From positions 1-64,000 of the forward strand of contig CALDUT010000011.1 of NCBI GenBank assembly GCA_937924775.1: 64,000 bases of DNA, written 5' to 3'. Positions 30,207 to 32,293 of this stretch are shown one piece after another. Made by a program: the position numbers and the translations under genes. Positions within the stretch are counted from its first letter, which is position 1; each line of letters opens with the position of its first letter. The stretch is from an uncultured Gemmata sp. (GTDB taxonomy: Bacteria; Planctomycetota; Planctomycetia; Gemmatales; Gemmataceae). Below the pieces are notes generated by a model. That model did not search any database, was not told where the DNA came from, and saw only the letters and a list, made by a program, of their open reading frames with translations.

Positions 30207-30302
30207 TAACAGGAGAGTTGATTTCGCCAGAGTTTCGCCCTCGCGGCGGGAAAGCTCGCTGGGCACATCGCGGGCCTTCCCTGTCGTCCGAGGTTGGGGA
30301 CG

Positions 30303-30404
30303 TTACCGTTTGTATTTTTTCACGCTACGCAATTTGTATTTGCGAGCTTTGCGGCGACGTTTGGCTCGAGTCCGCTGGCTTTTCGGTGCATGCAGAATGC
30401 CCAT
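30303..30404 (-). CDS. Small highly basic protein of 33 residues, candidate RNA/ribosome-associated
   Basis: ATG at 30404 with GAGGG 8 bases upstream (complement of 30413-30417), stop TAA at 30303-30305. The protein begins MGILHAPKSQRTRAKRRR and ends KYKR. More than half of the residues are Lys or Arg, and there is no acidic residue. The size and composition resemble the small basic ribosomal proteins (L34, L36, Thx, bS22 types), but it is not one of those I can name. It is too short for common gene finders. The codon choice and a good ribosome site argue that it is real. Confidence 0.7.
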   Translation of the reverse strand: MGILHAPKSQRTRAKRRRKARKYKLRSVKKYKR

Positions 30405-30699
30405 GGAGCGTACCCTCTTCAAAGTGGCTTCAGGCAGTGTCATTTTAGCCAGCACCATCCCCACCGCCTACCGTTGGTCCTTGCTTGGGATGTTTCTCGG
30501 ATCTGTCGGCCGTTTATGAACCAGTGGAGCCAAAGTATGTATCAGAGGGGTAACTTGATGAAGAAAGAAAAGCCTTGCGAAGTGCTTGCATGCGAAACCG
30601 GGCATGTTCTATGCTAAAGGAGCGAGCGATCTGGCGAGTTTTGGTCGCTGGGTCGTGGCGTGCGCCGGCCGGTCTCGCTGTCGCCACACCTTTCATCCT

Positions 30700-30798
30700 C
30701 GAAAGGGCAAACCTATCGTGAGGTAGGGGCGCAAAGCTACGGGCCTGCGGGGTTAACCCCTCAGTTTCATGAACCGCAGGTCGCCGGGTTGCCGAAGG
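30700..30798 (+). ncRNA. Cyclic di-GMP-I riboswitch (GEMM motif)
   Basis: The conserved GEMM parts occur in order: AGGGCAAACC (about 30704), a hairpin CCTATC-GTGA-GGTAGG with a GNRA tetraloop (30712-30727), then GGCGCAAAGCTACGGGCCT (about 30728-30746), a variable hairpin, and GGTCGCCGGGTTGCCG (about 30779-30794). These match the c-di-GMP-binding aptamer of class I closely, including the tetraloop and its receptor region. The nearest plus-strand gene is the zinc-finger protein at 31106, about 300 bases on. The expression platform is not clear. Confidence 0.9.
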
Positions 30799-30827
30799 GT
30801 TGGACGGTGAATACCTGTCCATCCCTG

Positions 30828-30859
30828 GAGTGCCATCAGCCTCCACTGATGTCGCACTC
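30828..30859 (+). other. Strong hairpin downstream of the riboswitch aptamer
   Basis: GAGTGC-CATCAG paired with CTGATG-TC-GCACTC, 12 pairs with a 2-base bulge and a 6-base loop. It lies 30 bases after the aptamer and could be part of the expression platform. No T run follows, so it is not a simple terminator. A second small hairpin GCCCC-GCTTTT-GGGGC is at 30906-30921. Confidence 0.5.
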
Positions 30860-31105
30860 TCTGTGACGCGGAACCACCGATCACGTATCGCTGACGCCGG
30901 CGCACGCCCCGCTTTTGGGGCTCCCATGTCCCCAACAGCCTTAGCTAACGGGACCACCTCCGTTTGCACACTGATCCAATAGCACCTCCGGACTGTTGTT
31001 AGTCCGCGAAATGCCCAACGCTTCCTATCCCGGTTGTGACCCATTTCACTATTCTAAAAATCGATCGCCCGCATTGGATCTCAACACTCCTGGGACCGAG
31101 GCCGC

Positions 31106-31378
31106 ATGGCCGAGCAAGTTCGCTGCCCTTGTGGTGGTCAGCCGGAATGTCAGTTATGCTTGGGAGCCGGGGTGTACCGCTACCAGCCCGGACCTCGCGG
31201 ATGGATGCCGTTCCTTTGCCCGACCTGCCAAGGACGCGGGCGACGGTCCATCGACGGGGCCAGCGAACCCTGTTTCACCTGCCGGGGCAATGGTAGTATC
31301 GACCCGGCCAACCCTCCGCGGAACCCGACCATCGGCGGCTTTCTCCGCGACCTGTGGCGGATGCTGTTCGGAGGGTGA
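31106..31378 (+). CDS. DnaJ-type zinc-finger small protein
   Basis: 90 residues. Cys pairs in the CxxCxGxG style of the DnaJ central domain: CPCGG, CQLCLGAG, CPTCQGRG and CFTCRGNG. That gives two zinc sites. There is no J domain, so it is not a full DnaJ. The C-terminus is short and hydrophobic/basic (GGFLRDLWRMLFGG). It lies between the riboswitch and sdhB, in the same direction, and is the first good gene after the riboswitch. Role unknown; may be an RNA or protein chaperone accessory. Confidence 0.8.
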   Translation: MAEQVRCPCGGQPECQLCLGAGVYRYQPGPRGWMPFLCPTCQGRGRRSIDGASEPCFTCRGNGSIDPANPPRNPTIGGFLRDLWRMLFGG

Positions 31379-31540
31379 ACCGACCACAAAGCCGGGGGAG
31401 GACCGCCCAGCGAGGTTATTTCTGTGGCCCCGACGCGGTTAATGGCCTGAACACACTCGCCCTGGCTTTGCGGGCGAATCAATATCCCAGAGACTTCCAT
31501 GAACGGATAGAGCTTACGAATCCCAACGAATGAGACCATC

Positions 31541-32293
31541 ATGAAGCTAACACTGCACATTTGGCGGCAAAAGTCGCGGACCGATCCGGGGCGGATGGTG
31601 ACTTACCGGGTCGACGGTATCAGCCCGGATATGTCGTTTCTGGAGATGCTCGACACCCTCAACGAACAACTGATTCGCCAGGGGGAAGAACCGGTCGCGT
31701 TCGATCACGATTGCCGGGAAGGCATCTGCGGCAGCTGTGCGATGATGATCAATGGCATGGCCCATGGTCCTGAACGGGCGACTACCACTTGCCAGCTGCA
31801 CATGCGCAGCTTCCCCGATGGCGCCGAGATCACGATTGAACCGTGGCGAGCGAAGGCTTTCCCCATCATCAAAGACTTGGTGTGCGACCGCTCGGCCTTC
31901 GACCGCATTATCCAAGCCGGGGGCTTCATCAGTGTCAACACGGGGGGGGCGCCCGACGGCAACACCCTGCCCATCCCCAAAACCGCCCAAGACCGGGCGA
32001 TGGACGCCGCGGCATGTATCGGCTGTGGCGCCTGTGTTGCGGCTTGCCCCAACGCCAGTGCCATGCTCTTTCTCTCGGCCAAGGTCAGCCATCTGGCGCA
32101 ATTGCCGCAAGGCCAGCCAGAACGCAAAGAACGCGTTCGCAAAATGATCGCCCAACACGATCGCGAAGGGTTTGGCCACTGCACCAACATCAATGAATGC
32201 GAAGCCGCCTGCCCCAAAGAGATCAGCGTCGAACACATCGCCCAACTCAACCGCGATTATATCGCCAGTACCGTCAGCAGTGCGATCAAGTAA
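31541..32293 (+). CDS. sdhB: Succinate dehydrogenase / fumarate reductase iron-sulfur subunit
   Basis: 250 residues. The N-terminal 2Fe-2S domain has [10 protein letters not shown] and a fourth ligand in TTCQL. The C-terminal dicluster domain has [14 protein letters not shown] and [14 protein letters not shown]. The sequence is of the shorter type common in Bacteroidetes and related bacteria ([32 protein letters not shown]). It passes electrons from the flavoprotein SdhA to the membrane anchor. No sdhA or sdhC is adjacent, which is unusual; they must be elsewhere, or the gene has separated. Confidence 0.93.

Follow-up and report, generated by a model that had tools for sequence, protein, structure and literature searches.

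As sensors of c-di-GMP nearly always regulate a neighbouring gene, a free-standing RNA that senses this second messenger is unusual, and riboswitch aptamers tend to be labelled gene leaders almost automatically. The merRNA of Bdellovibrio bacteriovorus is a massively expressed RNA of 445 nt that contains a c-di-GMP riboswitch, is followed by no conserved ORF and has been proposed to act as a store of c-di-GMP; according to the accessible passages of the paper that named it (PMC3627812), its authors could not find it conserved beyond the Bdellovibrio lineage, and riboswitches lodged within noncoding RNAs without a cis function have rarely been described. The raiA RNA, or ModT, is a structured, conserved standalone RNA which, in the available passages of PMC11706538, affects the level of c-di-GMP.

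Here we describe, from the window (a stretch of 64,000 nt at the start of contig CALDUT010000011.1 of an uncultured Gemmata sp., assembly GCA_937924775.1), a c-di-GMP-I aptamer that is probably built into a free-standing noncoding RNA gene of about 296 nt, at positions 30621-30916 of the forward strand, which we term the type B RNA. In outline it appears nearest to merRNA, with which it shares the presence of a c-di-GMP aptamer in a noncoding RNA without a conserved downstream ORF. However, it differs from merRNA, as portrayed in the passages of PMC3627812, in its length (~300 against 445 nt) and in possessing a covarying closed architecture, which recurs across 49 genomes from another group; merRNA is known by its massive expression, the type B RNA from its sequence. 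The type B RNA shares its aptamer domain with the c-di-GMP-I (RF01051) and c-di-GMP-I-GGC (RF03167) families, scoring above the cut-offs of both; unlike in the ordinary riboswitches of these families, its aptamer forms a single domain within a larger RNA, and no conserved cis target accompanies it. With the raiA RNA it shares conservation, structure, a standalone character and a connection to c-di-GMP physiology, but the passages of PMC11706538 describe effects on the c-di-GMP level rather than an aptamer within the RNA, and an Rfam scan of the window recovered no match to raiA RNA.

What appears to be new here, resting on the comparative evidence given below, is an aptamer built into an autonomous RNA gene that is conserved across an order. 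No type B RNA is described in the accessible text of PMC3627812, PMC9481103, PMC9943018, PMC2864571, PMC11706538 and PMC11109978, and none was found in the passages returned by a non-exhaustive search of the literature on c-di-GMP riboswitches, merRNA and the riboswitches of Planctomycetes and Gemmata. An aptamer RNA of such breadth would allow one to test if a second messenger is able to act through a free RNA directly, and would provide merRNA, a single-lineage RNA in the accessible part of the paper naming it, with a well-conserved counterpart having predicted boundaries.

The aptamer and its ligand

The aptamer of the window occupies positions 30697-30797 of the forward strand, where the Rfam scan gave 64.6 bits with RF03167 (cut-off 59) and 64.5 bits with RF01051 (cut-off 35), and nothing else in the 4.79-Mb genome matches either family. 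These scores bear out an earlier reading of the DNA from its letters alone (hereafter the sequence-only reading), which had recognized a c-di-GMP riboswitch with an intact aptamer. A search of 59 genomes with RF03167 recovered matches in 40 of them, at 73 sites, of which 72 were analysed together with their flanks, the weakest (G015:C30) being left out.

The ligand contacts in the window are G 30706, A 30733 and C 30792, which we take to correspond, in position and in role, to G20, A47 and C92 of the Vc2 aptamer from Vibrio. All three residues are invariant in 49/49 type B sites. The consensus of RF03167 in this region, ACGCGAA, has a G where A47 stands, and it is presumably this G to which the "GGC" of the family name refers; every one of the 49 type B sites has an A. 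Given the retention of the G, A and C contacts and the different consensus of RF03167, the ligand of the type B RNA is most likely c-di-GMP, and that the RNA binds this molecule may be predicted with high confidence. A GGC-specific variant was considered and rejected, as RF01051 and RF03167 score practically alike and the contact positions have the residues of the c-di-GMP-I type; the GGC label would thus be no sign of a different ligand specificity. Taken by itself, the aptamer is unexceptional within its known family.

Type B RNAs from the Gemmata group, and from certain other genera, carry CCCC in the loop of the large aptamer arm; in further genera this loop has CUGGG. The idea that a C-rich loop serves as a seed against ribosome-binding sites was discarded, CCCC being present in 14/14 sites of the genus and other loops elsewhere; no pairing partner for the CCCC loop was identified.

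Architecture, boundaries and distribution of the type B RNA

An alignment of the 14 sites from the genus revealed an unbroken block of conservation which begins about 75 nt before the aptamer and extends to about 120 nt beyond it, ending at GCCCCGCUAUU or its equivalent. In the window this block corresponds to 30621-30916; beyond a short U run, which lies 190 nt upstream of the next gene, encoding a zinc-finger protein, conservation is lost. The sequence-only reading had assigned 30700-31105 to the element, an extent that has to be revised at both ends, since the start lies approximately 75 nt further upstream and the end near 30916. Its mention of several strong hairpins downstream of the aptamer was well founded: the segment 30621-30916 folds with -144.2 kcal/mol (z -4.97), and 0/200 shuffled versions fold as well. 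A covariance model, R1, recovers the RNA with 243.1 bits at 30621-30917, the window sequence being itself part of the model.

In the minimum free energy (MFE) structure the two ends of the RNA pair with each other in a short terminal helix, P0, formed by AGCG (30621-30624) and CGCU (30910-30913), the latter being followed by UUU up to the predicted end of the RNA at 30916. Inside P0 a 5' hairpin of 10 bp with a GUUUUGG loop branches off at 30628-30654 (30628-30637 pairing with 30645-30654). It is followed by the 5' strand of a long-range helix (30657-30669), whose partner strand (30896-30908) lies at the far end of the RNA. Between these strands are placed the aptamer, a GGG...CCC hairpin (30797-30825) with a lower stem that overlaps bases of the aptamer helix P1, and a weakly conserved, variable hairpin with a CCUCCA loop (30827-30859), the last drawn from the MFE structure. 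All of these features lie on the forward strand.

This architecture was evaluated by means of covariation and strand-swap tests. The initial alignment, A1, comprised 23 sequences, namely the 14 genus sites and 9 similarly laid-out sites from outside the genus that were added by eye; RNAalifold predicted 61 pairs on it, 39 of which show at least one compensated double change, and R1 was built from this alignment. When the set was extended to 49 distinct sites (L061 is identical to L060 and was counted once), 94.7% of the cells were paired, as against 75.8% in shuffled and at most 48.1% in slid versions, and double-sided changes were seen in 44/61 pairs. These include 13/14 model pairs of the long-range helix (93.2% of cells paired) and 10/10 pairs of the 5' hairpin (95.1%). 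As the 49-site alignment was fitted to R1, and 22/49 of its rows were already in the model, a swap test on held-out sites constitutes the cleaner evidence. Across the 27 sites not in A1, cognate strands of the long-range helix pair with -43.1 kcal/mol, compared to -30.2 kcal/mol for swapped strands, with 0/20,000 permutations as low, and the cognate partner ranks first in 19/27. The 9 outside-genus sites of A1 gave a similar result (-35.3 vs -25.5 kcal/mol, 0/20,000 permutations as low), whereas for the 14 genus sites, owing to their similar sequences, the difference is slight (-47.5 vs -42.9 kcal/mol). The poor performers were L055, which ranked 9/9 in the outside-genus set, and two held-out sites ranking 9 and 17 of 27. 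The sites share descent, and hence the permutation counts in all these tests overstate independence and are not true probabilities.

The terminal helix behaves in the same manner, with cognate strands at -4.62 against -3.73 kcal/mol in the 49 sites and at -4.57 against -3.62 kcal/mol in the 36 sites from outside the genus (0/20,000 permutations in either case). It occurs in several compensated versions across genera, such as AGC/GCU, GGC/GCC, GGGCA/UGCCC (L013), AACC/GGUU (L122) and AUCC or ACCC/GGGU (L124, L125); AGACAU/AUGUCU (L069) and AACG/CGUU (L068) were recognized by eye, the start given by the model being a few bases off in these two. The predicted architecture and boundaries of the type B RNA are in this way shown by comparison of the sites.

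A simple scan of 30300-31600 recovered neither a promoter of the sigma-70 consensus nor a classical terminator, the latter in agreement with the sequence-only reading. A promoter-like motif, TTGCAT and TATGCT separated by an 18-nt spacer, is nevertheless present at 30586-30615 on the forward strand, and belongs to a pattern recurrent upstream of type B RNAs: TTGC-N18-22-TANNNT stands at most 12 nt from the start of the RNA in 42/49 distinct sites, as opposed to 43/9,800 shuffled upstream stretches and 23/13,100 random windows. At the other end, a run of at least four Ts is found in 26/49 sites, compared to 32/490 windows taken 40-240 nt further on and 362/13,100 random windows; the RNA ends used in this count were set by us for the 23 sequences of A1 and by the model for the rest. 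Many other genera end the RNA with GCTTTTT, while the genus of the window mostly has GCTATT, GCTACC or the like, so that the U run is absent or weak at most genus sites, with runs of four confined to L001 and L025. Together with the following Us, the 3' strand of the closing helix resembles the stem of a terminator having the whole RNA as its loop, and transcription may well end at this U run. For a standalone RNA of this kind the transcript is predicted to end before 31000. On the minus strand, immediately upstream of the RNA, is a very basic ORF of 51 residues (30303-30458, its extent read by eye), for which no Pfam match was found.

Searches of 102 Gemmatales genomes with R1 yielded 50 matches of at least 144.9 bits in 49 genomes, the next match having 103.6 bits; there is one copy per genome, with G018, which has two, as the sole exception. 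The borderline matches in G063 (103.6 bits), G001 and G080, and all lower ones, were left out of the 50. When 47 further aptamer loci were compared with R1, L052, L068 and L069 proved to be of type B (144.9-194.3 bits) and the others scored at most 90.1 bits. In a sample of 397 genomes from the class, matches of at least 144 bits were confined to the family of the window and to G037 of the same order, with no type B RNA recovered outside Gemmatales. In the genus a full copy is present in 13/19 genomes, and among these 19 genomes G003, G005, G009 and G014 gave no R1 match. One of the copies, L030 (G018), has its 5' domain replaced by a different hairpin, and L127 (G001), retaining the 3' part only, and L129 (G011), retaining the 5' part only, are apparently decayed remnants.

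Proposed mode of action and gene neighbourhoods

Taken as a whole, these observations are probably best explained by a standalone RNA that senses c-di-GMP and has no role as a leader of the zinc-finger and sdhB genes downstream. Transcription would begin at 30621 from the RNA's own promoter-like motif and would terminate at the U run that adjoins the closing helix. The product is predicted to be a closed rod, in which the ends pair, the 5' hairpin branches off and the 5' and 3' domains are held together by the long-range helix, with the c-di-GMP-I aptamer and its canonical contact residues located at the tip. Binding of c-di-GMP might then convert the tip from an anti-aptamer fold, in which a CCUUUC/GAAAGG hairpin accompanies the GGG...CCC hairpin, into the aptamer fold without opening the rod. 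This change at the tip could alter the meeting of the RNA with a partner in trans, which may be a protein or an RNA, or else the amount of c-di-GMP that is retained.

The anti-aptamer hairpin is near-invariant. In the window (30689-30706, forward strand) CCUUUC at 30689-30694 is able to pair with GAAAGG at 30701-30706, an arrangement that removes the core of the aptamer and excludes its formation. It is part of the MFE structure in 37/39 of the sequences tested, which are those of the 49 that have the exact motifs used. Forcing the aptamer fold upon these 39 sequences costs 9.5-22.5 kcal/mol (mean 14.5), a considerable penalty, in energies that omit tertiary contacts and the ligand; the long-range helix is mostly kept under these conditions, being reduced in L025 and L057 and lost in L028. 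As the sequence is almost invariant, covariation can hardly support the hairpin: 469/2,000 permutations were as good or better for type B (10 distinct piece pairs), 508/2,000 for the type A sites described in the last section (10 pairs) and 273/2,000 for other sites (35 pairs). With these permutation tests not significant, the hairpin was rejected as a proven switch, but the folding models make an anti-aptamer switch in the type B RNA plausible.

Whether the type B RNA would act in trans or be no more than a reservoir appears evenly poised. A bolder formulation, in which it typifies a new class of ligand-gated trans-acting RNAs, whose tip aptamer switches their action on a distant partner without any cis target, can be offered tentatively, the balance lying slightly against it. 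The variant in which the RNA is a reservoir or sponge that stores c-di-GMP is compatible with the standalone reading, and the type B RNA, standing alone with its aptamer intact and lacking a conserved target gene, would fit the description of merRNA; however, the 61 modelled pairs, the conserved 5' hairpin and the paired ends exceed what a sponge needs, and we regard this variant as rather unlikely.

The remaining alternatives tie the RNA to an adjacent gene. In the 50 sites, the nearest downstream gene scored by a simple codon-based caller is co-directional in 33, convergent in 16 and absent in 1. Among the 16 convergent neighbours 13 have a gene score of at least 35, those of L054, L060 and L061 being weak: a run with a genus-trained gene model placed a weak co-directional gene at L054 instead, and gave a convergent one for both L060 and L061, the former having been scored in the context of the latter, whose RNA is identical. 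The caller misses short genes, for instance the zinc finger of the window. Downstream families common to several of the 50 sites are small and unrelated, namely the zinc finger (7), an exported protein (5) and a metallo-hydrolase-like protein named from a reading of its sequence (4). A cis regulator is expected to share its transcript with a conserved target gene, and what was found is no downstream family in more than 7/50 sites and a convergent neighbour in 16/50.

The most elaborate form of cis action would be one in which the whole RNA is a terminator and c-di-GMP alters read-through into the next gene, originally that of the exported protein. This protein, of ~380-450 residues, is present in 51/102 genomes. 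By eye, it was located within ~11 kb of the type B RNA on the same contig in 11/26 of the genomes that have both, where roughly 0.1 of 26 would be expected by chance, taking 22 kb of ~6 Mb per genome and leaving common ancestry out of account. In five of these genomes (G026, G033, G024, G030, G060) its gene is directly downstream of the RNA, and this arrangement, together with the T run past the closing helix in 26/49 sites and the predominance of co-directional neighbours, is what such a mechanism would predict. On the other hand, the gene follows only after 6-11 kb in G008 and G010, is oriented convergently 7 kb away in G015, and is upstream and divergent in G076, G062 and G066, and 38/49 RNA-bearing genomes keep the RNA without an exported-protein gene nearby. 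Convergent genes face 16/50 copies, and the survival of most of the long-range pairing in the forced aptamer fold would leave the ligand little hold on the terminator. Regulated read-through is hence improbable. Because the orientation of the exported-protein gene varies, the link suggests an ancestral gene neighbourhood or participation in a common process, and not a leader in all cases. The protein itself gave no match in Pfam, NCBIfam or PDB sequences, and its structural model (pLDDT 79.6) no Foldseek match in the PDB at E 0.001 or better, and for want of any such match it was set aside as a clue to the function of the RNA. The secondary structure in the model of one member can be read as four similar repeats.

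A convergent gene in 16/50 copies also raises the idea that the RNA is an antisense-acting riboswitch for such a neighbour, in the way that riboswitches facing a gene at most 500 nt away are interpreted in the accessible part of PMC9943018, where 152 antisense against 2,554 sense c-di-GMP riboswitches are counted and the class is the one most often antisense to a gene. Against this, a convergent neighbour is absent from the window and from 33/50 sites, the predicted RNA stops before the convergent gene or at its edge wherever this was measured, and no convergent family is common to more than a few sites. An antisense role could fit some of the convergent copies, but not the RNA of the window, and as a general account is highly improbable.

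The sequence-only reading had proposed that the riboswitch controls either the zinc-finger/sdhB unit or a short RNA, and of these it is the latter that the present results favour. It had placed the two ORFs correctly: both are adjacent and co-directional in the window, a DnaJ CXXCXGXG-like zinc finger scoring below the Pfam cut-off at 31106-31378 and sdhB, the iron-sulfur subunit of succinate dehydrogenase/fumarate reductase, at 31541-32293 (both on the forward strand and outside the RNA unit). The zinc finger follows 7/50 type B copies, which, with the adjacency in the window, speaks for a leader. However, the zinc-finger protein, which is present in 16/19 genomes of the genus, is encoded away from the RNA in five of them (distant on the same contig in G002, G013 and G017, on another contig in G006 and G007) and occurs in the four genomes without an R1 match listed above. 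Where it does follow the aptamer, the distance ranges from 187 to 1,820 nt; one of the seven copies concerned is L030, without the usual 5' domain, and in G004 the zinc-finger match contains a stop codon. Within flanks of up to 3,000 nt, sdhB is downstream of only 2/72 aptamer sites, in two genomes, and conservation within the genus ends where the RNA ends. With both genes unlinked from the RNA across genomes, a leader role for either was rejected and appears very unlikely indeed. That the RNA is a vestigial riboswitch, stranded when its gene moved, as the remnants in G001 and G011 might suggest, can scarcely be credited when the contacts are invariant in 49/49 sites and pairing is maintained by compensatory change across genera.

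Type A RNAs and other aptamer sites

A second standalone-looking c-di-GMP RNA, which we term type A, was observed at L012, L019, L021, L033, L034, L036 and L066, and also at L005, L006 and L023. It consists of the aptamer, a conserved stretch resembling GGAUGGACGGGACC and then a strong intrinsic terminator. A strong intrinsic terminator 57-67 nt after the aptamer is found at 9/10 type A sites, whereas the same test recovered one at 6/26 type B and 4/36 other sites. In the 7/7 type A sites from the family of the window the nearest scored gene is convergent. Like type B, type A is an aptamer RNA without an evident target, but no long-range rod was seen in it and its terminator is of the ordinary intrinsic kind. 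If both readings are true, the occurrence of type A and type B in some of the same genomes would imply two free c-di-GMP-sensing RNAs per bacterium.

In other genera several aptamers are situated upstream of genes for Flp-type pilins, peptidases or large surface proteins, as identified by reading their sequences. At L039 (G051) and L044 (G055) the aptamers occur as pairs ~870-900 bp apart, with at least one aptamer of each pair upstream of an Flp-pilin-like ORF, and the two aptamers of the G051 pair are identical.
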